Assembly (NCBI RefSeq): GCF_002975405.1
Contig: NZ_PCPS01000002.1
Coordinates: forward strand, 682,001 to 746,000
Length of the DNA stretch: 64,000 bases
Direction: 5' to 3'
Source of the DNA: Arthrobacter sp. MYb229
GTDB lineage: Bacteria; Actinomycetota; Actinomycetes; Actinomycetales; Micrococcaceae
Below are positions 21,303-63,600 of the stretch, piece after piece (the stretch's first letter is position 1; each line of letters opens with the position of its first letter). Position numbers and translations under genes: made by a program. The notes under the pieces are model-generated. The model did not search any database. It had not been told where the DNA came from and was given only the letters and a program-made list of their open reading frames with translations.

Positions 21303-22184
21303 TTATTTGTCCTCGTCGCCACCGACCATGGTGATTGGCTGGACGCCTCCGCCGGGGAAGCAGCCGATCGGGCTCTTGCCCGATTCTGCGACGATGTCCA
21401 AGCATTTGGATGTCAGGGTTTCGGGGGTGATGGACCGCTCGAGGATCTTGTTGGCCTCGGCCTCGGCGGCGCTGGTTTGCTTGCGCTGCTCGGCGATGCG
21501 GGTCTTCGCAGTTTCGGCCTGCAGCTCGTTGATGCGATTCTGCGTCGGCTCATCGAAGTTGATGATCGGCAGGGTTACCGAGCGGATGTCGATCTGGGTG
21601 CCGACCTTTTCCTGCATCTTGGTCCGCACGGACTTGGCCAGGCCCTCGAGGTCCTGGCCTCCATCGGCTGGATCGGTGTAGGCCAGCGGGTCGTAGGTCG
21701 CCATGACTTCGTTCAACGCGGCGCGGAAATTGCGATCCACCAGGTTGGACTGGATGCCTTCGAAGGTGCGGTAGTCCAGGAACACGGACATCGCGTCGTC
21801 GGTCTTCAACTGCCACTGGATCGAGGCGTCGACGTTCGCCTTGCCGTTGTTTCCCAGGCGGACCGGGATGGCGCTGTTCGAAGAGTACACATCGTTTTGG
21901 ACCGACCCATCGAGCTTCTCCACGGTTTCCCACGGCGCCTTGAGGTGGAAGCCGTTGCCGATGACGGCGGTGGGCTTGCCCAGGGCGATCTTCACCCCGA
22001 CAGTGCGTGGCTGAACGATGGTGGCCGAGGCGAATCCGAGAACAACCAGCGAAACGACCAGGATGCCGATGCCGGTCAACCGGGCATTTCCCTTGGACTT
22101 CGCGCCGGCTTTCATGCCCGCGCTGCCGAAGACGAAGAATAGCCCGAGCAGGATGCCAATGATGATGAGAACTGTGAGAAACAT
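21303..22184 (-). CDS. SPFH/Band 7 (prohibitin-like) membrane protein
   Basis: The predicted 293-residue protein is anchored by two N-terminal hydrophobic segments (MFLTVLIIIGILLGLFF and GIGILVVSLVVLGFASA). An SPFH domain follows (residues ~60-230), with VQPRTVGVKIALGKP at its start. A helical segment comes next (NELQAETAKTRIAEQRKQTS, then AEAEANKIL), typical of oligomerising prohibitin homologues. Such proteins form ring-like membrane scaffolds that affect protein quality control or lipid domains; the exact role is unknown here. The start at ATG 22184 is chosen because AAGGAAGAGGG precedes it. Confidence 0.88.
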   Translation of the reverse strand: MFLTVLIIIGILLGLFFVFGSAGMKAGAKSKGNARLTGIGILVVSLVVLGFASATIVQPRTVGVKIALGKPTAVIGNGFHLKAPWETVEKLDGSVQNDVYSSNSAIPVRLGNNGKANVDASIQWQLKTDDAMSVFLDYRTFEGIQSNLVDRNFRAALNEVMATYDPLAYTDPADGGQDLEGLAKSVRTKMQEKVGTQIDIRSVTLPIINFDEPTQNRINELQAETAKTRIAEQRKQTSAAEAEANKILERSITPETLTSKCLDIVAESGKSPIGCFPGGGVQPITMVGGDEDK

Positions 22185-22287
22185 GTCCCTCTTCCTTGAT
22201 GTGATGAACACTTAAAGTCTAAGCGATGTACCATCTGGAGGATTCGAGGGAAGATGAGTGATGTTTCACGGATGCTGCAGCGGAAGG

Positions 22288-22497
22288 CTACTTCAGGTGG
22301 CCAACCAGCTCAGAGGCGATGCCGGTGTAGCTGCCCGGGGTCATCTGCTGCAGACGAGCCTCGGCGTCTGCCGGCAAGCCCAGCTCGCCAACGAATTCCT
22401 TCAAACGGGCCGCGTCCACGCGCTGTCCGCGGGTCAGGTCCTTCAGTCGCTCATAAGGATTGTCCATGCCTGCAACGCCGGCAATGGATTCGGCGCG
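22288..22497 (-). pseudogene. purB: displaced 3' end of purB (69 codons plus stop)
   Basis: On the minus strand this segment encodes RAESIAGVAGMDNPYERL and onward to SELVGHLK-stop. It is the C-terminal 69 residues of adenylosuccinate lyase, in frame and with its own stop. It is nearly identical to the end of the intact purB (28771-28983). Differences are Pro for Ser after GELGL, one silent T/G change, Gly for Asp in the last ten residues and a 3-base indel at the terminus. Similarity ends abruptly at 22497. It has no start. It is best explained as the old chromosomal 3' end left behind when the island inserted. Confidence 0.9.
22288..22497. repeat. direct repeat, left boundary of putative island
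   Basis: About 210 bases match 28771-28983 in the same orientation, with only a few substitutions and one 3-base indel. The two copies bracket 22498-28770. Recombination between them would excise the segment and restore a single purB. Confidence 0.88.
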
Positions 22498-22904
22498 TTG
22501 TGAAGTTCGAGCGGACAGGGCTTCATGGAGACGATCGTGCTGCAGGGATACAGCGAAGAATGAAAAGCGCTACGGTCGATCTTAAATATTAGACCCGAGC
22601 AACGAGATGAACGACGAGACGATATCGTTGGCACCTGTGGATGCAGTCTTCAGCCTGTATAGCAGCGTGCATGCTGACAAACCTAGCTCGGCCGCTAGCT
22701 CGGCGTTCGGCATACCCCGACTCGCCGCTCATTAAAGTGCGGTGCAATTGGGCCGGGTGAGCACTGGATTTGTTGTTCGTTCGGTGTGACCGAACGGTGT
22801 GATAGCAACTTGGCCGTTGAACCGCTCCGCAACCTGGACTCTACTTATAGAGAGAGCAAACCATGTGTCTCTAGTCACAGAACCTAGGTCCGAAGGAGAA
22901 CGAA
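22498..22904. other. island left end, promoter region of the MFS operon
   Basis: This 400-base stretch has no supported gene and is less GC-rich than the flanking core genes. It begins exactly where purB homology stops. It contains a palindrome at 22778-22796 and, just before the MFS gene, the ribosome-binding site GAAGGAG. No integrase fragment, tRNA or insertion-sequence end was recognised. Confidence 0.5.
22778..22796. promoter_or_regulatory. palindromic operator candidate upstream of MFS gene
   Basis: CGTTCGGT-GTG-ACCGAACG is a perfect 8-bp inverted repeat with a 3-base centre, about 110 bases before the MFS start codon. It is a plausible binding site for the LysR regulator encoded in the same operon or for another dimeric repressor. 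Confidence 0.45.
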
Positions 22905-24254
22905 ATGGCCGTCACCGCTGCTCCAAAACAAAAAGACAGGGCTTCTAGTACGCCAAATAGTAGGCGAAACTGGGGCATCGTCGTGATGCTGTTGATCTTC
23001 TTTATGCTCAATTTCGCCGATAAGGCGGCTATAGGGCTGGCGAGTACGCCGATTCGAGAAAGCATGAACCTGAGTGCAAGCCAGTATGGGCTGCTTTCAA
23101 GCGCGTTCTTCTGGTTATTCGCGGTCGGGGCGGTCACGCTCACTGCAGTGTTCCGTAGAATCTCTTATAACTGGGCAGCCGGCATCTTGATGATCACCTG
23201 GATTCTGACAATGTTGCCACTGACGGCTCAAACAACTTTTGGTGTATTGCTTGCAAGCCGGATCGCATTGGGTTTCTTCGAAGGCCCCGCGCACGCGCTA
23301 TGCCAGTCCATTGTTCACGAACTTTTCCCCCCTGAAAAGCGTGCTGCCGCAGGCGCTGTGGTCAATGCCGGTTCTTCTCTCGGACCCCTGTTTGCAGCGC
23401 CGATTCTGACTTGGATCATCCTGACCTGGGATTGGCACGCATCTTTCGTCTTCTTGGTGGGCATCAGTATTACCTGGGCCATCGTCTGGTTTTTCTATGC
23501 TGACAAGCTTCCCTTCCGCAAGCGGCGAATAGCCAATGAGCCTAGGGCAGCCAAGGAAGACCCCAACGGCGATATTGTCGTCCCGTTCTACCGTCTGCTA
23601 TTGATACCTAGCTTTTGGGGTCTCGCGCTACTTTCGTTCGCCGGATATCTAATCACCTCGCTGAAGGTTTCCTGGTTGCCTGCCTTCATGAATGAAGGCC
23701 TAGGGTACTCGATGGAAAGTGTCGGCGTATTGGTGACGATCCCGTATATTGTGGCGGTAGTAGTACTACTGGGTGCCGGGTTGCTCTCAGGACACCTATT
23801 GAAGCGTGGCCACTCCTCAAGAATGGCCCGTTCTTTCCTGACTGCTGCCTGCCTGCTGTTCGCCGGAGCATCAATGATCACGTTTACTCAGATCCCGGCT
23901 GGCCCGCTCCAGCTCGTTCTGGTCGTCGCGGCATTCTCCATCAATTCGGTGGCGTTCTCCATCGGATTTGCAGGTGCTTCGGACTTCCTCCCGGCCCACC
24001 AGCGTGCCTCGTTCTTCGGTTGCATAATTGCTGCCTATTCGATCGCCGGAATGGTTGCACCCTACGTACTGGGTCTGATCGTTGAAAGCGCAGCATCCTC
24101 CGTTCAAGGCTATTCGAACGGATTCTTGATCGTTGGCATCACCATCTGCGTATTCGGGGTCGCCGGTGGAATGATGCTCAATCCAGCCCGGGCGCGGACC
24201 CGGCTTCTAGAACTCACCGCAATGTATGAAGCTCGAAAGCAGGTCAGTTCATGA
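22905..24254 (+). CDS. MFS transporter, organic-acid type
   Basis: This 449-residue, 12-TM transporter has an N-terminal half with MLNFADKAAIGLASTPI and the MFS motif region RIALGFFEGPAHALCQS, and a long central cytoplasmic loop before a second set of six helices. The overall look is that of anion:cation symporter-like uptake systems for carboxylates. It starts the island operon: the ribosome-binding site GAAGGAG precedes ATG 22905, and its stop overlaps the CoA-transferase ATG. The substrate is presumably the acid activated by that transferase, but it cannot be named from sequence. The gene is visibly less GC-rich than its core-genome neighbours. Confidence 0.87.
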   Translation: MAVTAAPKQKDRASSTPNSRRNWGIVVMLLIFFMLNFADKAAIGLASTPIRESMNLSASQYGLLSSAFFWLFAVGAVTLTAVFRRISYNWAAGILMITWILTMLPLTAQTTFGVLLASRIALGFFEGPAHALCQSIVHELFPPEKRAAAGAVVNAGSSLGPLFAAPILTWIILTWDWHASFVFLVGISITWAIVWFFYADKLPFRKRRIANEPRAAKEDPNGDIVVPFYRLLLIPSFWGLALLSFAGYLITSLKVSWLPAFMNEGLGYSMESVGVLVTIPYIVAVVVLLGAGLLSGHLLKRGHSSRMARSFLTAACLLFAGASMITFTQIPAGPLQLVLVVAAFSINSVAFSIGFAGASDFLPAHQRASFFGCIIAAYSIAGMVAPYVLGLIVESAASSVQGYSNGFLIVGITICVFGVAGGMMLNPARARTRLLELTAMYEARKQVSS

Positions 24255-25480
24255 ACCAGCAAGCTGGGCCGTTGAAAGGAATCCGGGTACTGGACTTTGG
24301 GCAGTACATTGCTGGCCCGGGCGCCGGCCAGATCCTGTCGGACCTCGGTGCCACAGTCATCAAGGTCGAGAACATTAGCGGTGACCAAGCCCGCAGCATT
24401 GGTGTTTTTGGCGAAGCCATGATCCGTGCCTACAACCGGGACAAGGCAAGCCTGGCACTGGATCTAAGGAAACCCGAGGCACGTGTTGTCGTCCAGCAGC
24501 TGCTCCCGGAAACCGATGTACTGATTCACAACTTCCGCCCCGGGGCGGCAGAACGGCTGGGACTCGGCGCTGAAACCTTGCGCGAGCAGTACCCAGCACT
24601 TGTCTACGGTTCGGTGACCGGGTTTGGAACTCGTGGACCCTCCAGCGATCGTCCGGGACTGGATATCGCTGCGCAGGCAGAATTTGGGATCATGCAGACA
24701 ACAGGTGAAGAAGGTGGAGAACCTCAGCGGATCGGTTTCGCCGCAGTTGACGTGGCAGCAGCAAACTCGCTTGCCACGGGCATCATGGCAGCGCTCTTCG
24801 CCCGCACAACCACACGGGAAGGGGCCCATGTTCAAACATCCTTGATGGAAGCGGCGATTTCCATGCAGGCAGCGACTTGGGGCGAATTCACCATCACCGG
24901 TCAGCCCGGACGGCGCAAGGGAAACGGCCAGGCACACGCGGCCCCCGCCGCGGATCTGGTCCATGTCAGCGATGGAATGATCGTGCTTTCCGCTTACACG
25001 AGTGAGAAGTGGGCAGCGCTCTGCAACGCCATTGGCCACCCCGAATACATTGAAGATCCGAGGTTCAGCGACAATCCGTCCCGCGTTGCCCACCGTTCAG
25101 CACTCCTGGACAGTTTGGGGCAGGCACTCTCCGCGAGCACCCGTGACCAAGCAGTCAAACTGCTCCTGGCCAACGGCATCGTCTGCGGGGCAGTCCGTGC
25201 TTTCGACGAACTGGTGATCGATCAAGATCTGGTCGCATCAGAGGTGCTGATCTCGGTTGAATCCGGCAATGGAAATTACACCTCCCCGGGAGTCCCCTTC
25301 ACACTCGATGGGTGGCGCAGGACTTCCTCCGCCGAAGCGCCCCGACTCGGAGCGCAGAATACTCGGATCCTTGCTGATCTGGGCTATACGGAGGAGCAAA
25401 TCGAAGCACTGCACGTCGCCGGTGTAGTCTCCACGCCACCGATTGCCGCAGCCGGTACCTCGCAACATGCACGTAAGTAA
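24251..25480 (+). CDS. class III (CaiB/BaiF family) CoA-transferase
   Basis: This 409-residue enzyme moves CoA from a donor thioester to a carboxylic acid. The family's N-terminal pattern is clear: LKGIRVLDFGQYIAGPGAG, then DLGATVIKVENISGDQAR. YNRDKASLALDLRKPEAR follows, and RPGLDIAAQAEFG contains the conserved catalytic Asp. It overlaps the transporter gene by four bases and is followed 12 bases later by an acyl-CoA dehydrogenase. It therefore most likely activates the imported acid. Carnitine-type CoA-transferase is one possibility, not proven. Confidence 0.92.
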   Translation: MNQQAGPLKGIRVLDFGQYIAGPGAGQILSDLGATVIKVENISGDQARSIGVFGEAMIRAYNRDKASLALDLRKPEARVVVQQLLPETDVLIHNFRPGAAERLGLGAETLREQYPALVYGSVTGFGTRGPSSDRPGLDIAAQAEFGIMQTTGEEGGEPQRIGFAAVDVAAANSLATGIMAALFARTTTREGAHVQTSLMEAAISMQAATWGEFTITGQPGRRKGNGQAHAAPAADLVHVSDGMIVLSAYTSEKWAALCNAIGHPEYIEDPRFSDNPSRVAHRSALLDSLGQALSASTRDQAVKLLLANGIVCGAVRAFDELVIDQDLVASEVLISVESGNGNYTSPGVPFTLDGWRRTSSAEAPRLGAQNTRILADLGYTEEQIEALHVAGVVSTPPIAAAGTSQHARK

Positions 25481-25492
25481 GGAACTACATTC

Positions 25493-26692
25493 ATGATCAA
25501 CCCCGAGATATTCGAATACGGATTTGATGAGTATCGCAAGCTCATCGCGGAATTCACCGAGCGGGAATTGATTCCCGCGGAAAACGAGATGGTCCAGGCC
25601 GGCGCCGTCCCCGAGCGCCTGCTCAAACGCATGGCGGAGGTAGGGCTTTTCGGCATCTCCATCCCTCGCAAATACGGCGGGCTGGAATGGAACATGGAAC
25701 AGCAAGTTCTGCTGACACTCGAATTCACGAGGGCCTCCTGCGTCTACCGTTCACGATTCTCCACGGTCATCGGTTTGTGCTCCCAAGCGATCCTCGACCA
25801 CGGCACAGAAGAACAACGGGGCAACCTGCTGCCCAAGATGGCCGCCGGCGAACTGGTCACTGCATTCGCGCTGACCGAGGAAGGGGCCGGATCCGATGCG
25901 GCGCAGCTCACCACCTCCGCGACCCTTGAGCACGAACGCTACGTGCTCAACGGCGAGAAGCGATACATCACCAACGCCGGATGGGCTGATGCCTTCGTGG
26001 TTTTTGCACGCACCAACCAGTCGATCTCGGGCGCCAAAGGCGTTTCCGCGCTGATCGTTGACGCCACGCTGCCCGGAGTCACCACTTCGCTGCCCACCCG
26101 CATGAACGGCCATGCCGAGGCACCGGTCGGCGAAATCCACCTCAACAACGTCTCGGTGCCCGCCAGACACTTGTTAGGCGGAGCCGGCGGCGAAGGACAG
26201 GGACTGACTATGGCGCTGCGCGGTATCAACCACGCCCGGCTCCACGTGGCAGCAACTTGTGTTGGCCAGGCAACGCGCATACTCGAAGAAACCACCAGCC
26301 ATGTCAGCAGTCGCAAACAGTTCAACGCCCCGCTGTCCGACCTGGGAGCCGTCCAGGCCGTGCTGGGCGAGTGCTTCGCCGAGGTCGAGGCCGCCCGTGC
26401 GCTGGTCATGGAAGGAGCACGCTCCTTCGACGAGGGAGATGTCCCTCGCCACCGGATCGCCGCGGCCAAGCTCTTCGCCTCCGAAATGGCTGGCCGCGTT
26501 GCCGACAAGTGCCTCCAGCTGCTCGGCGGCGAGGGAATTGTCGGCGACCATCCGATCCCGCGTATGTGGCGCGACGTGCGCGCGCTGCGCATCTACGAGG
26601 GGTCCTCGCCAATTCACGAACGCAATCTTGCCGTAGCTATGATTCGACAAGGGAAGATCGACGGAAAGCTCCCGAATAGCTACCGCGCGTAG
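25493..26692 (+). CDS. acyl-CoA dehydrogenase
   Basis: This FAD enzyme of 399 residues introduces a 2,3-double bond into an acyl-CoA (or acts in reverse as a CaiA-like reductase). Family signatures include FALTEEGAGSDAAQLTTSA, NGEKRYITNAG, and the C-terminal QLLGGEGIVGDHPIPRMWRD with RIYEGSSPIHERN. In the catalytic-base position, Glu in YEGSS is present. It lies directly after the CoA-transferase, so its substrate should be the CoA ester made there. Its GC content is closer to the host average than that of the MFS gene. Confidence 0.93.
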   Translation: MINPEIFEYGFDEYRKLIAEFTERELIPAENEMVQAGAVPERLLKRMAEVGLFGISIPRKYGGLEWNMEQQVLLTLEFTRASCVYRSRFSTVIGLCSQAILDHGTEEQRGNLLPKMAAGELVTAFALTEEGAGSDAAQLTTSATLEHERYVLNGEKRYITNAGWADAFVVFARTNQSISGAKGVSALIVDATLPGVTTSLPTRMNGHAEAPVGEIHLNNVSVPARHLLGGAGGEGQGLTMALRGINHARLHVAATCVGQATRILEETTSHVSSRKQFNAPLSDLGAVQAVLGECFAEVEAARALVMEGARSFDEGDVPRHRIAAAKLFASEMAGRVADKCLQLLGGEGIVGDHPIPRMWRDVRALRIYEGSSPIHERNLAVAMIRQGKIDGKLPNSYRA

Positions 26693-26734
26693 CCCTGCCA
26701 ACGCGCAAAACCGTCTGAAGCCAAGGAGAAAATT

Positions 26735-27706
26735 GTGGAGATTCGCCAGCTCGAGTATTTCTTGGCCGTTGTCGAGCACAACGGCGTCAATCGCGCTGCC
26801 GTCCACCTGCACGTTGCGCAGGCAACGATATCCCAGAGCATCAGGCAGCTTGAGCGCGAACTCAAGCTCGAGCTGTTTCACCGGACGGGGCGCAACATCG
26901 TGTTGAATTCGGCGGGCCGGCTTCTTGTTGACCCGGTTCGCCGAATCCTCGGAGAGGTCCTTTCCACGAAGGACCTCATGCATGGGGCCCTCGAGATGTC
27001 CGTAGGTTCTATCACGATCGGCACGATGCCCGAGATGTCCAGCGAGGCCGTGGCTGCCTGGAGCGGATCGTTCACCAAGCACTACCCTGAGATTCGGATC
27101 GACATGACCGAGTATGCAGATGTTGCAGAGCTCTGTGAAGAAGTGCTCAACGGGCACTGCGAAATCGGATTCACCACTTTCCCGATTCCCGTCGAAAACT
27201 TGCAAACGATCCAATGCGGTGTCCAGCGGATGATGCTGGTCATGCCACCGGGCACCACGCTCCCGGCACACCAGCCGGTCGCGTTGTCCGGGCTGCACTC
27301 GCTGCCACTGGCAGTGAGCAACTTAGCGCACCGAGAAAACGACATCGTCGCAGCGGCACTTCGAGAGCAAGGCATCACCGGTCGGATCAGAGCCTACGTG
27401 CCCACCCGGCACGCGCAGCTGGCCCTGGTGCTGAACGGCAGTGCAAACGCGTTCCTGCCGATTCGGCTTGCCGTGCTCGCGAAGAAACTGGGAGCAGTGG
27501 TCGTCGAAACGGAACCCACGATTCGCACAGACTACGGAATCGTGCACCGTGCTGGCTCGTTGAATCCGGCGGCAGAAAGCTTCATTCGGCAAAGCATGGC
27601 GGTCCTGAACCAATGGGGAGAACTGATCAAGAAGCACCAGGATGCCGGGGAATCGTTGCTCGATGCTGCATTGCTGGCGGACGAAGCGCTGCACGGCAAG
27701 GTCTAG
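26735..27706 (+). CDS. LysR-family transcriptional regulator
   Basis: The 323-residue regulator has an N-terminal winged helix-turn-helix (MEIRQLEYFLAVVEHNGVNR, then AAVHLHVAQATISQSIRQLE) and a C-terminal effector-binding domain. The start is GTG 26735, preceded by AAGGAGAA. Unusually for LysR genes it is not divergent; it lies inside the operon between the acyl-CoA and 3-hydroxyacyl-CoA dehydrogenase genes. It probably senses the pathway substrate or a CoA ester and controls the island promoter. Confidence 0.92.
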   Translation: MEIRQLEYFLAVVEHNGVNRAAVHLHVAQATISQSIRQLERELKLELFHRTGRNIVLNSAGRLLVDPVRRILGEVLSTKDLMHGALEMSVGSITIGTMPEMSSEAVAAWSGSFTKHYPEIRIDMTEYADVAELCEEVLNGHCEIGFTTFPIPVENLQTIQCGVQRMMLVMPPGTTLPAHQPVALSGLHSLPLAVSNLAHRENDIVAAALREQGITGRIRAYVPTRHAQLALVLNGSANAFLPIRLAVLAKKLGAVVVETEPTIRTDYGIVHRAGSLNPAAESFIRQSMAVLNQWGELIKKHQDAGESLLDAALLADEALHGKV

Positions 27707-27779
27707 CCCGCGGGTGCCCCGGCCAACTACCGACAAATCGCCGCACCGGCGAACAACCTATGAACAAACGGATTCAACT

Positions 27780-28661
27780 ATGAATACAAGTAGCGGCGTA
27801 GAGGGCATTTCTAACATCCTGGTCATTGGCGCCGGGACCATGGGACGTCAGATAGCCATGAGCGCGGCCCTGGCCGGCTACTCCACAACCCTCCAAGATA
27901 TCTCCCTCGATGGCCTGACCGCGGCACGCACCGAACACAAGAGCTGGGCCGATTCCCGGGTAGCCAAAGGCAAGCTGGGGCAGGACGATGCCGGCGCTGC
28001 GTTGGATGCACTGGCCTACAGCACGGACTTGAACACCGCGGCCTCCGGCGCGGACTTTGTGATCGAGGCTGCCACCGAGCGTCTGGACATCAAGACGCAG
28101 ATCTTCGAGCAGCTGGGCGTGCTGACCCCGGCCCATGCCATTCTGGCCACGAACTCCTCCACCCTGGGCTCCTCCAAGGTCGCGGAGGCCACAGGGCGTC
28201 CGGCGCAGGTGTGCAATATGCACTTCTTCAACCCGGCGCTGGTCATGAAGTGTGTCGAGGTGGTGCGCCACGGAGCAACAAGCGACGCCACGGTTCAGGC
28301 CGCTATGGACCTGGCCCGCCGGCTGGGCAAGGAGCCGGTGCTGATCAACCGCGAAATCCCCGGGTTCATCGCCAACCGCCTGATGGGTGCGATGCAGCGC
28401 GAAGCGCTGTTCCTGGCCGATGAGGGCATCGCAAGCATCGAGGACATCGACACCACGGCGCGCACCGCGCTGGGCCATCCGATGGGCCCGTTCGCACTGA
28501 TGGACATGGTTGGGCTCGACGTCATCGACTTCATCGCCCAAGCGACTTACGAGGAAACCGGCAACGCAGAGGATGCACCCAACGAACGCATCACGGCGCT
28601 GGTTGCTGAGGGAAAAATCGGACGTAAATCCGGCACCGGGTTCTACGGCTACACGCGGTAG
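27780..28661 (+). CDS. 3-hydroxyacyl-CoA dehydrogenase (3-hydroxybutyryl-CoA type)
   Basis: This NAD enzyme of 293 residues oxidises a 3-hydroxyacyl-CoA to the 3-oxo form. Rossmann motif ILVIGAGTMGRQIAMSAALA lies at the N-terminus. The catalytic His is in MHFFNPALVMKCVEVV, with Asn in NSSTL and REIPGFIANRL further on. The length matches the short, single-function class. ATG 27780 overlaps the end of a seven-codon frame (ATGA), and no strong ribosome-binding site is seen. It is the last gene of the island before the intact purB. No enoyl-CoA hydratase or thiolase accompanies it. Confidence 0.92.
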   Translation: MNTSSGVEGISNILVIGAGTMGRQIAMSAALAGYSTTLQDISLDGLTAARTEHKSWADSRVAKGKLGQDDAGAALDALAYSTDLNTAASGADFVIEAATERLDIKTQIFEQLGVLTPAHAILATNSSTLGSSKVAEATGRPAQVCNMHFFNPALVMKCVEVVRHGATSDATVQAAMDLARRLGKEPVLINREIPGFIANRLMGAMQREALFLADEGIASIEDIDTTARTALGHPMGPFALMDMVGLDVIDFIAQATYEETGNAEDAPNERITALVAEGKIGRKSGTGFYGYTR

Positions 28662-28700
28662 CCCCTTGCCGGAGAAACTACCAGCGGCGTGAAAAATATT

Positions 28701-28736
28701 GAAGAACACCCCCGGCCATTGCAGAGGGTGTTCTTC
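28701..28736. terminator. bidirectional terminator at island right end
   Basis: GAAGAACACCC (28701-28711) pairs with GGGTGTTCTTC (28726-28736) in an 11-bp stem around a 14-base loop. It lies between the convergent 3-hydroxyacyl-CoA dehydrogenase and purB genes. Confidence 0.7.
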
Positions 28737-28770
28737 AAAGCACGGTAAGAACCGCGTAAAACGCTGCGGG

Positions 28771-28983
28771 TTACTTCTGCAGGTGGTCAACCAGCTCAGA
28801 GGCGATGCCGGTGTAGCTGCCCGGGGTCATCTGCTGCAGACGAGCCTCGGCGTCTGCCGACAAGCCCAGCTCGCCAACGAATTCCTTCAAACGGGCCGCG
28901 TCCACGCGCTGTCCGCGGGTCAGGTCCTTCAGGCGCTCATAAGGATTGTCCATGCCTGCAACGCCGGCAATGGATTCGGCGCG
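28771..28983. repeat. direct repeat within purB, right boundary of putative island
   Basis: This is the 3' end of the intact purB, matching 22288-22497 over its length. The terminal codons differ (HLQK here, HLK in the remnant), as expected if this 3' end was delivered by the inserted element. Confidence 0.88.
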
Positions 28984-30186
28984 CATGACCATCTGGATGG
29001 CCTCGGCGAGCACCTCCCAGTTGTGGTCCAGATCCTCTGCGAGTACCGCCTCGGCGACGTCCAAGCGATCCAGGCCCTTGGCGACGTTCGAGATGGCAAG
29101 CACCGAGTGGCCAATGGCGGTGCCGATGTTGCGCTGCGAGGAGGAGTCGGTCAGGTCGCGCTGCCAGCGGCTGGTGACCAGGGTGGCACCCAGGGTGTCG
29201 AGCAGGCCGTTGGAGATCTCCAGATTCGCCTCGGCGTTCTCGAAGCGGATCGGGTTCACCTTGTGCGGCATGGTCGAGGAGCCGGTTGCTCCGGCCACAG
29301 GGATCTGTGCGAAGTATCCGATGGAGATGTAGCTCCACACATCGGTGCACAGGTTGTGCAGGATGCGGTTGAAGCGTGCGATGTCGGCGTAGACCTCTGC
29401 CTGCCAGTCGTGGGATTCGATCTGGGTGGTCAGCGGGTTCCAGGTCAGTCCCAGGTGCTCGACGAAGGACTGCGAAACCTGCTGCCAGTTAGCGGTGGGA
29501 ACCGAAGCGTAGTGGGCGGCATAGGTGCCGGTGGCGCCGTTGATCTTGCCCAGGTACTCGGTCTTCTCGATGCGGTCCAGCTGGCGGGTTAGGCGCCAGG
29601 CAAGAACTGCCAGTTCCTTGCCCAAGGTGGTTGGGGTTGCCGGCTGGCCGTGGGTGCGCGAAAGCATCGGAACGTCGCGGGACTCTTCGGCCATCTTGGT
29701 CAGCTGGGTCACCAGCTCGCGGGCCGCAGGCAACCACACCTGGGTGACGCCGCCCTGGACGCCCAGAGCATAGGAGAGGTTGTTGATGTCTTCGCTAGTG
29801 CAGCCGAAGTGGACCAGCGGCTTTAGGTTGCCAATGCCGATAGCGTCCAGGCGGTTAGCGATGTAGTACTCGACTGCCTTCACGTCGTGGACGGTGACGG
29901 CCTCGATCTCGGCCAGTTCCTTCACCGAGTCGGCGTTGAAGTCCGTGACGATCTTGCGCAGGGCAGCCTGCTGATCGGCGGTGAACGGGGAGGTGCCCGG
30001 CAGCACGGAGTTCTCGGCCAGGTGGATCAACCATTCGATCTCCACGTGAACACGATCGCGGTTCAGCGCCGCTTCGGAAAGGTAGTCAACCAACGGTGCC
30101 ACCGCGCTGCGGTAGCGTCCATCGAGGGCACCAAGTGCCAGGGGTTCATTAGCAAGGGAAGTGCGCGCAATCTCAGCCATGTTCAT
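28771..30186 (-). CDS. purB: adenylosuccinate lyase
   Basis: This purine-biosynthesis enzyme of 471 residues cleaves SAICAR and adenylosuccinate, releasing fumarate. It shows the fumarase/lyase superfamily signature GSSTMPHKVNPIRFE and MLSRTHGQPATPTTLGKE with the conserved His. The coding region is intact although its last ~70 codons lie in the repeat shared with the remnant at 22288-22497. This means the enzyme now ends with island-supplied codons. ATG 30186 is used; a second ATG lies two codons in. No strong ribosome-binding site is seen. Confidence 0.97.
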   Translation of the reverse strand: MNMAEIARTSLANEPLALGALDGRYRSAVAPLVDYLSEAALNRDRVHVEIEWLIHLAENSVLPGTSPFTADQQAALRKIVTDFNADSVKELAEIEAVTVHDVKAVEYYIANRLDAIGIGNLKPLVHFGCTSEDINNLSYALGVQGGVTQVWLPAARELVTQLTKMAEESRDVPMLSRTHGQPATPTTLGKELAVLAWRLTRQLDRIEKTEYLGKINGATGTYAAHYASVPTANWQQVSQSFVEHLGLTWNPLTTQIESHDWQAEVYADIARFNRILHNLCTDVWSYISIGYFAQIPVAGATGSSTMPHKVNPIRFENAEANLEISNGLLDTLGATLVTSRWQRDLTDSSSQRNIGTAIGHSVLAISNVAKGLDRLDVAEAVLAEDLDHNWEVLAEAIQMVMRAESIAGVAGMDNPYERLKDLTRGQRVDAARLKEFVGELGLSADAEARLQQMTPGSYTGIASELVDHLQK

Positions 30187-30339
30187 ATTCTTTCATCACT
30201 GCGTGCACATCACATCTTTTACACACATCCTTCTTTCCACAGCCGGTGCCCAAACGGGCCGAAAGAGGCAGCAGCAGGGTGAAGATGAAGGCAGATTTTC
30301 ACCGATTCGCCGGTGGAGAATGACGGGTGGGAGCTAATC

Positions 30340-30612
30340 ATGATGTTTCAGGCGACCCTGGATTCGGTGGCCTTCCAGCTGGATGACGCCCAGTCAACAA
30401 CGCGTTTCGCCATCGAACAGCTCTCTTCAATCGGTTCGCTGACTTGGAGATCTTCGGCAGGCAAGGCCTTTGCCTCCGAGGTGAGCCAACTCAGTGACAG
30501 GCTCGTGGGACTTACCAAAGCGCTGGGCGAAGCCGAGTCCTATCTGTCGTTGGCCATCGGGGAGATGAACGCGTTGGAAGCGGAGATCCTCAATCAGCGA
30601 ATGGCTTCCTAG
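30340..30612 (+). CDS. small helical WXG100-like protein
   Basis: This 90-residue protein is predicted to be two helices around a central turn (SLTWRSSAGKAF). The Trp at about residue 35 is followed by Arg-Ser, similar in place to the WXG motif of ESX/type VII substrates. Length, lack of Cys, and the helical Glu/Gln/Ser/Leu composition fit the family, but the third WXG residue is not Gly. The start is ATG 30340 after GGGAG; GTG 30313 is less likely. It is two bases from the next gene, so the pair is co-translated and may form a complex. Confidence in the gene is higher than in the family call. Confidence 0.7.
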   Translation: MMFQATLDSVAFQLDDAQSTTRFAIEQLSSIGSLTWRSSAGKAFASEVSQLSDRLVGLTKALGEAESYLSLAIGEMNALEAEILNQRMAS

Positions 30613-30614
30613 CC

Positions 30615-31961
30615 ATGGGATATGACGTCAATTACAACGCCTTGGATTACGCCCAATCGGCTCAAATTTGCCAACAATTCTACGGGCAACTCCAAAGTGT
30701 GGAGACGCAATTGCTGAGAGCCTCGGTGCGCGCGCAAGAATGCCAGCGAGAAGCGCAAACCCAATGCTGGATTAATGGAATCGGTAACCGTGGCTATTCA
30801 CTGGGGATGCTGGCGGACAAATTACGCACCGGCTACCACCACGCGGCCGAGGCCGTGATCGAAGCCCGGAGGTTGGAGGAGAAGGTGCACGCAGCAATCG
30901 AGAACTACGTCAGGGCAGAGACCAGAATCGAGAACTCGATTCTGGTCTCTGCCAAATGGCAGATTCTGCTGGACGCTTGGAACAGCACGCGCAACAACGA
31001 TTCCCGCCCGCCAACCACCGACATGGAAACGCTGCTCAAGCTCTTTGTTTTGCTCTCTTCGCCACGGGACCGGTTTGGCTTTGCGCGCCCGCAGCCCTTG
31101 ATGATGCACGAAACGACCGAAAAACTGGCCGATTTCATCTCTACCTGGGGGCCATTGCGGAGCAAGGAACTGCACCTCGGCGACGCCCAACCGGTGGAAC
31201 AGGTTGAGATCGACGGCACGCTGAACGGCTACTACCAGCTTCACAAGATTCTCAACGATGCGGGACCCAGTGATGATGGGCAGATTCTGATCGCCGAGGC
31301 CGAGCAAGATGGAGAGAACGTTTATCTCGTCATTCTTCCCGGGACTCAGGGGGAGGGCAATGGCAATAATCCCTTTGACACCTACGGCATCATCGATGCG
31401 TTCAGCCTCGAATCGGAGAACTTCGCCGGACCGATCAGCGAGGCCCTGCACATCACTGGCGCCCGCGAGGGCGACGAGGTGATCCTCAGCGGGTACTCGC
31501 AAGGCGGGATTCATATTGCGAATCTGATGAAGAACAGGTTCTTGCGCAAGAAGTTCAAGATGGAAAAGATGCTGACCCTCGGTTCTCCCATTGGCCACAT
31601 AGATCTTCCCGAGGACATTCGAAGCCTGTCGATTGAGGATTCCAAAGACATGGTTCCTGGCACCGACGGGGTGGAGAACAAACGCAAAAAGGATCAAATC
31701 ACCGTGAAATTTGACGGTCCGAGGTTTGAGGAACAGCTCGACGAGGGGTTGTTCGGCAAACCGCACGACCTAGATAATTACGGAGACCATCTCGAAGAGC
31801 TGGTGGAGAACCCGATCCCGGATCTGCACGAGAATCTGCGGGAATTCGGGCTTCCTCCGGGACCTTTGAAATTTCGCAAATTCAAGATCGAACGCAAAGA
31901 GCGCCCGCGAAACACTAAGCATGAAAACTGGGAGGAAGAGAAATACGGCTCAGCCCGCTAG
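30615..31961 (+). CDS. alpha/beta-hydrolase-fold protein with helical N-terminus, possible secreted effector
   Basis: The 448-residue protein has a helical N-terminal ~115 residues (EsxA-like in length, partner-binding candidate). A middle linker follows, then an alpha/beta hydrolase core with the nucleophile elbow GYSQGG (Ser295), an upstream VYLVILPGTQG strand-loop and a downstream MLTLGSPIG strand. The C-terminus is strongly basic and acidic (KFKIERKERPR ... EEKYG). There is no classical signal peptide, compatible with type VII-type export of a heterodimer with the preceding small protein. Lipase/esterase activity is plausible. The DNA contains a perfect 19-bp palindrome inside the coding sequence at 30915-30954. 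Confidence 0.72.
   Translation: MGYDVNYNALDYAQSAQICQQFYGQLQSVETQLLRASVRAQECQREAQTQCWINGIGNRGYSLGMLADKLRTGYHHAAEAVIEARRLEEKVHAAIENYVRAETRIENSILVSAKWQILLDAWNSTRNNDSRPPTTDMETLLKLFVLLSSPRDRFGFARPQPLMMHETTEKLADFISTWGPLRSKELHLGDAQPVEQVEIDGTLNGYYQLHKILNDAGPSDDGQILIAEAEQDGENVYLVILPGTQGEGNGNNPFDTYGIIDAFSLESENFAGPISEALHITGAREGDEVILSGYSQGGIHIANLMKNRFLRKKFKMEKMLTLGSPIGHIDLPEDIRSLSIEDSKDMVPGTDGVENKRKKDQITVKFDGPRFEEQLDEGLFGKPHDLDNYGDHLEELVENPIPDLHENLREFGLPPGPLKFRKFKIERKERPRNTKHENWEEEKYGSAR
30915..30954. repeat. perfect 19-bp inverted repeat inside a coding sequence
   Basis: GGCAGAGACCAGAATCGAG (30915-30933), two bases AA, then its exact complement (30936-30954). It encodes the joint between the helical N-terminus and the linker of the hydrolase protein (RAETRIENSILVSAKW). 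No such symmetry is needed by the protein sequence. Confidence 0.9.
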
Positions 31962-46948: not shown

Positions 46949-48364
<1,416 letters not shown>

Positions 48365-62142: not shown

Positions 62143-63600
62143 CTATGCCAGCGGAACGCTCGCCGCGACGCCAGTTAAGTTAGCGGGCGAGAGCAAGGTA
62201 TCGAGGAGGCCGGGATCCACCAGGCCGTAGGACAGCACTAATTCCTTGATGCCTTGCCCGCTGGCTAGGGATTCCTTGGCCAGGTTCGCCGCGTTCGCGT
62301 AGCCGATATGGGGTGCTATTCCCGTGATGATGCTGACCGATTCGGACATGCGTCGTGCCAGAACTGGTTCGTTGGCCGTAATGCCGTCGACGCATCTGGT
62401 GCGCAGGGTATGGCAAGCGGAGGCCAGCCACTGCAACGACTCGAGGAGGCAATCGACCATCACCGGTTCAAAGGCGTTCAGCTGCAACTGGCCGGCTTCT
62501 ACTGCCATTGTCACGGTTGCGTCGGCACCCACCACCCGGAAGGCGACCTGGTTCACGACCTCCGGAATCACCGGGTTCACCTTCCCCGGCATGATCGAAG
62601 AGCCGGCTTGGACCGCGGGCAGGAAGATTTCATTAAATCCTGTTTGCGGGCCGGAGGAAAGCAGGCGCAAATCATTGCAGATCTTCGACAGCTTGACGGC
62701 CGAACGCTTGAGCACGCCCGAGAGCAGCATGAATACTCCGGTGTCGGAGGTCGCTTCAACCAGATCGCGGGCGGATACCAATTCCAGGCCGGTCAGGTTG
62801 TTGAGTTCCCGAGTTACCAATGCGCGGTACTCCGGGTGGGCGGTGATTCCGGTGCCGATGGCCGTAGCGCCGAGGTTGATTTCCGATAAATGCGCCGGCA
62901 GCTCGGATAACCGGGCCAAGTCTTCGCGCAAGGTTTCGGAAAATGCAGCAAATTCCTGGCCTAAGGTCATCGGGACGGCATCCTGCAGCTGCGTCCTGCC
63001 GATCTTGAGGATCTGGGCAAACTCGAGTCCTTTGGCCGCAAAGGAATCAACCAGGAGCTGGTGTTCGGCGCTGTAGTCTCGCAACGCCGAGAGCAAGGCG
63101 ATCTTCACCGCGGTGGGGTAGGTGTCGTTGGTGCTTTGGCCCATGTTGACGTGGTCAATCGGGTCGAGCTCGTGGTACGCGCCCTTGGCGAATCCCAGAA
63201 TCTCCAGTGCACGGTTGGCGATGACCTCATTGAGGTTCATATTGGTGCTGGTGCCGGCGCCGCCCTGGATGCGGTCAACGGGGAAATGCGCGTCGAAGAG
63301 CCCGTCGCGGACCTCCAACGCGGCTTGGTCGATGGCGGCCGAACGTTGCGGATCGAGCAGCCCCAGGCTGGTGTTGGCCCTGGCCGCTGCACACTTGACT
63401 GCGCCAAAGGCCCAGACCAGTGAGCGCAGGCTGCCCACGGGGCGCCCGCTGATGGGGAAGTTCTCGACGGCTCGGAGGCTGCTGATGCCCCAATAGGCAT
63501 CGGCCGGCACTAGGCGTTCGCCAAGCGAATCACGCTCAAGGCGTGTGGCGGGAACGTGGCGCTCTTCGGCTCCGGCGGCATTGGGTAGAGAGGTATTCAT
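62143..63600 (-). CDS. aspartate ammonia-lyase-like enzyme (second copy)
   Basis: The 485-residue enzyme is a paralogue of AspA at 46949-48364, with GSSIMPGKVNPVIPEVVNQ, GGAGTSTNMNLNEVIAN and KIGRTQLQDAVPMTLGQEF conserved. The N-terminus is longer by about 15 residues. The start is ATG 63600; it lies eight bases after an M20 amidohydrolase gene. That context suggests it uses the amino acid released by the amidohydrolase (aspartate or an analogue). Confidence 0.88.
   Translation of the reverse strand: MNTSLPNAAGAEERHVPATRLERDSLGERLVPADAYWGISSLRAVENFPISGRPVGSLRSLVWAFGAVKCAAARANTSLGLLDPQRSAAIDQAALEVRDGLFDAHFPVDRIQGGAGTSTNMNLNEVIANRALEILGFAKGAYHELDPIDHVNMGQSTNDTYPTAVKIALLSALRDYSAEHQLLVDSFAAKGLEFAQILKIGRTQLQDAVPMTLGQEFAAFSETLREDLARLSELPAHLSEINLGATAIGTGITAHPEYRALVTRELNNLTGLELVSARDLVEATSDTGVFMLLSGVLKRSAVKLSKICNDLRLLSSGPQTGFNEIFLPAVQAGSSIMPGKVNPVIPEVVNQVAFRVVGADATVTMAVEAGQLQLNAFEPVMVDCLLESLQWLASACHTLRTRCVDGITANEPVLARRMSESVSIITGIAPHIGYANAANLAKESLASGQGIKELVLSYGLVDPGLLDTLLSPANLTGVAASVPLA

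Follow-up and report, generated by a model that had tools for sequence, protein, structure and literature searches.

How did a set of five genes come to stand directly after purB, a housekeeping gene, in Arthrobacter sp. MYb229, with a second, start-less copy of the purB end on its far side? The locus lies in 64,000 nt of contig NZ_PCPS01000002.1 (positions 682,001 to 746,000), called the window here, to which the coordinates below refer, and an earlier sequence-only reading had pictured it as a genomic island in the purB 3′ end. On balance, our analysis leans toward a horizontally acquired catabolic cluster that was inserted right after purB by homology-anchored (RecA-type) recombination and not by an integrase. 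The genome under study is denoted G000, the genomes compared with it carry other G numbers, and L numbers stand for individual loci. The parts of the locus are as follows.

28771..30186, minus strand: intact purB (adenylosuccinate lyase), the anchor gene, an open reading frame of 471 amino acids with Pfam Lyase_1 (3.7e-49) and ASL_C (1.4e-43)
28771..28779, minus strand: last codons of intact purB (..QK stop), the approximate putative switch from host purB to incoming DNA; they differ from the orphan (LK stop), which ends like purB of G017
28700..28768, minus strand: terminator hairpin and spacer that would have arrived with the cluster, kin to the one after intact purB in G066 (77% over 64 nt)
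22498..22765, no strand: filler of 268 nt between cluster and orphan, at the presumed non-homologous joint, without counterpart in G066 or G108
22288..22497, minus strand: orphan purB tail, the last 70 codons with no purB start, followed by host flank
21303..22211, minus strand: SPFH/Band 7 gene (Pfam Band_7, 2.6e-19), which adjoins purB in the empty site of G017

Base-by-base alignment of the orphan with intact purB gave 97.6% identity over 210 nt in the same orientation, with an expectation value (E) of 4e-101 that rules out a chance repeat, and the direct repeat as a whole (22277-22497 and 28763-28983) is gapless and 95% identical over 221 nt. Identity ends sharply at 22497 on the gene-inward side and approximately at the purB stop codon on the other. 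This agrees with the repeat-bracketed insert of about 6.3 kb and the abruptly ending orphan of the sequence-only reading; the insert proper (22498-28770, 6,273 nt) holds five plus-strand genes. The terminal difference noted there, HLQK versus HLK, was likewise found (DHLQK in intact purB, GHLK in the orphan), and purB is intact as claimed, its frame being unbroken across both domains. An assembly artefact, which had been feared, is unlikely, as the junctions lie inside a contig of 932,938 bases and another assembly, G066, repeats the anatomy. No third copy of the purB tail was found in the assembly of 3,998,291 bases (two matches only), and no tRNA gene is present in the window as an insertion target.

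The segment after purB is an insertion, because in the related species G017 the SPFH gene comes immediately after purB. For G066, which belongs to another genus, the empty site was found in its near relative G152, where purB is followed by the same DNA that follows the G066 orphan (95.3% over 2.3 kb); the G066 flank matches from purB outward through these 2.3 kb without loss, and further out G152 is about 1.5 kb longer. The complete cluster was detected in three of 395 family genomes (G000, G066 and G108), directly after purB in all three, and an order-wide sample of 396 genomes yielded G000 and a single partial match (G680, 1 kb at 68%); both surveys scored the best two candidates per genome, and weaker second copies may escape. 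Compared with G000, the cluster is 80% alike in G066 (79.4% over 5.9 kb) and 77% alike in G108, where its dehydrogenase is more distant. The protein identity of the 3-hydroxyacyl-CoA dehydrogenase is 86.4% to G066 and 76.6% to G108. In the genus of G066 the cluster occurs in 2 of 15 genomes, and G108 carries it after purB with no orphan tail. The empty-site comparison suggested earlier was thus informative, and the concern that all relatives might carry the segment with no empty site fell away.

Judged by their endings and flanks, the orphan is taken to be the host side, while the last codons and the terminator of intact purB would have come with the insert, as the sequence-only reading had proposed in speaking of a host 3′ end replaced by an incoming one. 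The terminator after intact purB has its kin in G066; elsewhere in the 395 genomes, with the two best candidates scored in each, it was matched by only 22-34 nt, in 7 genomes, and by eye it is unlike those of 17 species of the same genus. Behind the orphans of G066 and of G014, a third genome described below, stands a terminator of the type that a relative has after purB, the one in G014 resembling the terminator after purB in G013 (48 nt at 79%), and the G000 orphan is followed by the SPFH gene as in G017. In G000 the last purB codons changed too, from LK in the orphan to LQK in the intact gene. These changed codons and the differing terminator suggest that the incoming DNA began at the last purB codons and brought its own terminator. 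In G000, G066 and G014 alike, the insertion starts at the purB stop or no more than a few codons from it.

The distribution of such tails was surveyed in 94 purB regions with at least 1.5 kb downstream, namely the window, 17 of its genus, 14 of the genus of G066 (G066 included) and 62 others; G066, G250 and G278 are a selected part of this sample, having entered it because two purB-tail matches had already been seen there. Tails reaching the purB end were found in 3 of the 94: G000 (210 nt, 97.6%), G066 (241 nt, 99.2%) and G014 (45 nt, 93%). The other 22 of 25 hits fell short of the purB end (16-59 nt, 71-100%). With the best two candidates scored per genome, a second purB-tail match was present in 6 of 295 family genomes, three of which are these same cases, and the remaining three were set aside: a 45-nt match on another contig (G101), a 32-nt match 214 kb away (G250) and an inverted partial purB (G278). 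The last of these (L131, G278:C1:727634-728299) combines a complete purB with a second, inverted copy of the final 168 codons (99.6% DNA identity), and roughly 90 bases separate the two 3′ ends, which point toward each other; it is either an assembly palindrome or a true inverted duplication. A search of named genomes, mostly distant taxa, gave 76 of 80 purB loci among the matches listed with at least 1 kb downstream, and in these one tail match reached the last 40 nt (L110, 31 nt at 81%); the nearest named purB records among the matches listed were from Paenarthrobacter and Pseudarthrobacter (82%). purB itself is present in 18 of 18 genomes of the genus of G000. In G014, an insert of 1.2 kb with other cargo lies between purB and the tail; this insert (L029:294-1553) holds an Abi-like (phage defence) reading frame interrupted by a stop codon, and the part beyond that stop has a weak match to Abi_2 (2.2e-4, 22 bits, below the curated cut-off of 25.6).

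Each tail matches the purB of its own host, while the tails of G000 and G066 are just 77-81% alike, and the G000 tail is, after its own genome, closest to its own genus (best two candidates scored per genome). A tail donated from another genus is thereby rejected, and so is a mosaic purB from a distant donor, as the last 212 nt of the G000 gene were less conserved than its middle in the comparisons made and showed no switch to another genus. Such host-matched tails are not expected of one element carrying its tail across genera, unless gene conversion overwrote it. Away from the last codons, orphan and intact gene differ at 3 sites in 200 nt in G000 and at 2 in 235 nt in G066. Relatives back the intact base at four of the five (17/17, 17/17, 13/13 and 12/13), and the fifth is a variable third position, with the intact base in 10/17 and the orphan base in 2/17. 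Four of the five differences alter the amino acid, whereas between G066 and G152 each of the 7 codons that differ over this stretch carries a synonymous change (Fisher test against the tails, p 0.010, on a scripted codon count that leaves out the last codons). Adding the one amino-acid change in the last codons, counted by hand, gave p 0.032, and adding the comparison of G000 with G017 (19 synonymous, 9 not) gave p 0.031. Since the differences mostly change amino acids and lie where relatives keep the intact base, the tails seem to have begun as exact duplicates of purB from the same species and to have decayed later without function.

Homology-anchored capture could have produced this arrangement in a few steps. 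Incoming DNA would have comprised the cluster, preceded by a purB 3′ end and a terminator, from a donor that presumably had the cluster beside its own purB; through RecA-type recombination within the purB tail, host purB would have become continuous with the last codons, terminator and cluster of that DNA; and the far end of the incoming DNA would have been joined without homology inside purB, about 212 nt before the stop in G000 and about 244 nt before it in G066. By one route the fragment would be trimmed and circularised and then enter by a single crossover, and by another the incoming DNA would bridge two sister chromosomes. Both routes may give the observed layout and are indistinguishable here; the first needs a near-same-species donor already with the cluster after purB, and the second permits a more distant one. 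The product would be an intact purB with a new terminator, the cluster, a start-less purB tail that decayed afterwards, and the old host flank. The layout present runs from an intact gene through the insert to a start-less second gene end and the host flank, as a single-crossover insertion of re-circularised DNA requires. The purB tail, known here from the host, is the shared sequence at the putative anchor end. The orphans are 97.6-99.2% identical to host purB and may be of host or donor origin. At the far joint, the DNA common to G000 and G066 stops at about 22766, the edge of the filler. A second copy of DNA from the same genome is ruled out for the filler, which has just 34-nt and 26-nt matches there (E 0.06); a possible remnant of a helix-turn-helix regulator was seen in it by eye, and Pfam and NCBIfam were empty for the open reading frames tested.

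Several observations weigh against homology-anchored capture. A donor with the cluster beside a near-identical purB and no orphan was not found for G000 or G066; G108 has such a donor-like layout, but its cluster is only 77% alike. The switch to incoming DNA falls within the last few codons in both G000 and G066; a site-specific event at the stop codon would favour this position, a crossover free to occur anywhere in a long homologous gene would not, and strand exchange that proceeds as far as homology extends is also compatible with it. The host-like look of the tails could stem from later gene conversion between the repeats as well. Over roughly 55 nt next to the G000 orphan there is no alignment with the terminator of G017, so that this side is native by its gene only. 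In classical homology-facilitated illegitimate recombination recipient DNA is generally deleted (PMC3240628), whereas here it is duplicated. Finally, tails turned up in only 3 of the 94 regions, so that a change of neighbour beside purB usually comes without this kind of trace, at least in a survey this small.

A classical site-specific island, in which an integrase took the purB 3′ end as the attachment site attB, a purB-like tail made the gene whole again and the integrase later disappeared or works from another place, is unlikely, and retains some standing through the switch at the purB end, which fits a site-specific event. The insertion point at or close to the stop codon in three genomes, the long flanking direct repeats, the restored gene end and the 12 tyrosine-recombinase (PF00589) matches elsewhere in G066 would suit it, and G108 has 13. 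The insert, however, contains no integrase, all five of its genes being metabolic or regulatory by Pfam, and no PF00589 match lies on the purB contig of G000, G014, G066 or G108, nor any serine recombinase (PF00239) match on that of G000, G014 or G066, these two being the families searched; the recombinase matches of G000, G014 and G066 are on other contigs. The purB contig of G066 is just 29.6 kb, and its negative covers no more distant gene. Whole G000 and likewise G014 have just two PF00589 matches, which we infer to be XerC and XerD. The repeats, moreover, vary in length (45, 210 and 241 nt) with different inner ends, the tails are host-matched, and the insert had no megablast match to phages and only one 474-nt piece, in the 3-hydroxyacyl-CoA dehydrogenase gene, matching plasmids at 75%. 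The sequence-only reading was therefore right to see no integrase and to call a 210-base repeat long for a site-specific recombinase; of the two origins that it offered, an immobilised integrase element is disfavoured by the missing integrase and the varying repeat, and arrival by homologous recombination is the better option. As an observation apart, a run of three consecutive tyrosine recombinase matches lies upstream of purB in G152, some 31 kb away (G152:C1:1362380-1364762), with a similar trio in G066 (C43); this looks like a triple-recombinase mobile module and gives no sign of a link to the purB insert.

It is quite unlikely that the cluster has stood beside purB since before the two genera split, with many losses by recombination between the tails and gene conversion keeping the tails alike. 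Position and order are the same in three species, deletion between tails would yield exactly the empty sites observed, purB of G000 and G066 is 83.7% identical, above the 79.4% of the cluster, and cluster identity between G066 and G108 (77.7%) is like that of two other loci (71-80%). Yet between G000 and G066 the 79.4% over 5.9 kb exceeds the 67-69% of the long stretches in the two xerC/xerD-bearing loci compared (one 244-nt stretch there reaching 84%). The cluster would also have to have been lost from 17 of the 18 species in one genus and from 13 of the 15 in the other; G108 lacks an orphan beside its copy, and the orphan flanks differ between the genera of G000 and G066. A local duplication of the purB end that happened separately and placed the orphan between an already present insert and the SPFH gene is very improbable: small gene duplications occur, in one reported pneumococcal case without flanking repeats (PMC3784515), and the 268-nt filler does part tail from cluster, but the event would have to recur in G000 and G066 with the same cluster and in G014 with other cargo.

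Gene-end anchored insertion is a known kind of behaviour, and homology-anchored capture at purB appears to work like it. Islands formed by integrases at gene 3′ ends (tRNA genes, guaA and the like) restore the gene end and have direct repeats at both borders. The purB locus shares with them the restored end, a known empty site and border repeats, and differs in that its insert has no integrase and its repeats are long, match the host and vary in length, with no constant attachment core. It is not classed with them because an integrase and a constant repeat were looked for and not found. Closer is a laboratory case. In Escherichia coli receiving DNA with the lacZ end, the polymerase chain reaction pointed to a duplicated lacZ end in 56 of 60 exceptional clones, and the 14 clones sequenced had 109-950 bp duplicated, which the authors read as single crossovers of circular molecules lacking part of the lacZ end (PMC3240628). 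There, as here, foreign DNA lies beside a duplicated gene end of variable length (210 and 241 nt in our case) and no integrase is needed. Unlike that laboratory construct, the present case is natural, lies at purB and involves the same cargo on two occasions; at 45 nt, the tail of G014 falls short of the 109-950 bp range, and RecA is presumed here. For the sister-bridging route, donor DNA bridging two chromosome copies is described as yielding duplications in Streptococcus pneumoniae (PMC3784515).

Homology-facilitated illegitimate recombination, reported for S. pneumoniae, A. baylyi and P. stutzeri (PMC3240628), likewise combines one homologous anchor with one non-homologous joint and no integrase. 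The coupled deletion expected of it is absent here, and the purB case is not classed with its classical form because DNA was duplicated, not deleted. Loci of the type VI secretion system of Vibrio cholerae, of Rhs proteins and of contact-dependent inhibition, with displaced immunity genes and orphan tails, resemble it in having a constant upstream part, variable downstream cargo and the old 3′ piece pushed downstream; the paper on the secretion loci proposes a homologous anchor with an illegitimate far joint (PMC5361080, PMC3150448). They differ from purB, where the anchor is a housekeeping gene, the cargo is catabolic and toxin-immunity selection is absent. In the partial texts returned by a literature search on that question, no description of purB as an island site was met; one Staphylococcus aureus strain is mentioned there with an island beside purB without a preferred site, and a second mention of purB concerned only a strain genotype.

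More tentatively, and with less than even confidence, the purB 3′ end of these actinobacteria may be an integrase-free entry point, where foreign DNA bearing a purB end is taken in just behind the stop codon. Such DNA would bring a terminator with it, a purB tail of host origin would mark the event, and the catabolic operon would have arrived by this route independently in two genera. The downstream neighbour of purB varies in keeping with this, with 10 kinds of sequence in the first kilobase or so after purB among 18 species of the genus of G000 and 7 kinds among 14 species of the genus of G066 (the fifteenth, G233, being left out); SPFH follows purB in 1 of 17 relatives, while a homologue of the neighbour upstream of purB is kept in 17 of 17 (33-89% identity). 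Integrase-less islands often go unexplained, and empty sites, host-matched tails and a travelling terminator would make a readable footprint of entry beside a housekeeping gene. If true, gene-tail footprints could be a general marker of recombination-driven gene acquisition, and if general, displaced gene tails could date and count such entries in any genome.

The cargo consists of five genes, listed from the purB side, in which CoA stands for coenzyme A.

27642..28661, plus strand: 3-hydroxyacyl-CoA dehydrogenase (Pfam 3HCDH_N 1.9e-56, 3HCDH 1.5e-28; first matched residue 59)
26735..27706, plus strand: LysR-family regulator (Pfam HTH_1 3e-20, LysR_substrate 1.6e-27)
25493..26692, plus strand: acyl-CoA dehydrogenase (Pfam Acyl-CoA_dh_1 1.3e-40 and other domains)
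24251..25480, plus strand: class III CoA-transferase (Pfam CoA_transf_3 8.4e-111; below every NCBIfam cut-off)
22905..24254, plus strand: transporter of the major facilitator superfamily, MFS (Pfam MFS_1 3.9e-43)

The true start of the 3-hydroxyacyl-CoA dehydrogenase gene is probably downstream of the annotated one, near 27800. Together the five genes are predicted to serve the breakdown of an organic acid, probably a small one that CoA transfer activates; the NCBIfam models shown for the cluster proteins all stayed below their cut-offs. Guanine-plus-cytosine (GC) content is 59.4% in the cluster, 62.6% in the window and 60.1% in the right flank, and third-position GC is 62-63% in the MFS and CoA-transferase genes, 74-75% in the LysR and acyl-CoA dehydrogenase genes, and 82-84% in purB, SPFH and a neighbouring gene of the OMPdecase/HPS family. 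Protein relatives of the CoA-transferase were found on 831 plasmid records, all below 60%. Upstream of the MFS gene (window 22766-22904), a repeated ACCGTTCGGT/ACCGAACG motif, seen by eye also in G066 and G108, is a candidate regulator-binding site.

On the other side of purB, upstream of the gene (window 30313-31961), lie a small protein of 99 amino acids, the one with a homologue beside purB in 17 of 17 relatives, and a protein of 448 amino acids with a lipase-like GYSQGG motif seen by eye; both are below the Pfam cut-off and may form a secreted-protein pair. A direct-repeat scan of the window (at least 45 nt, seed 14) gave three families, the purB pair and two others that are 72-75% alike. 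The segments 47250-48105 and 62459-63314, which have this 72-75% likeness and lie 15,209 bases apart in register, are probably paralogous genes.

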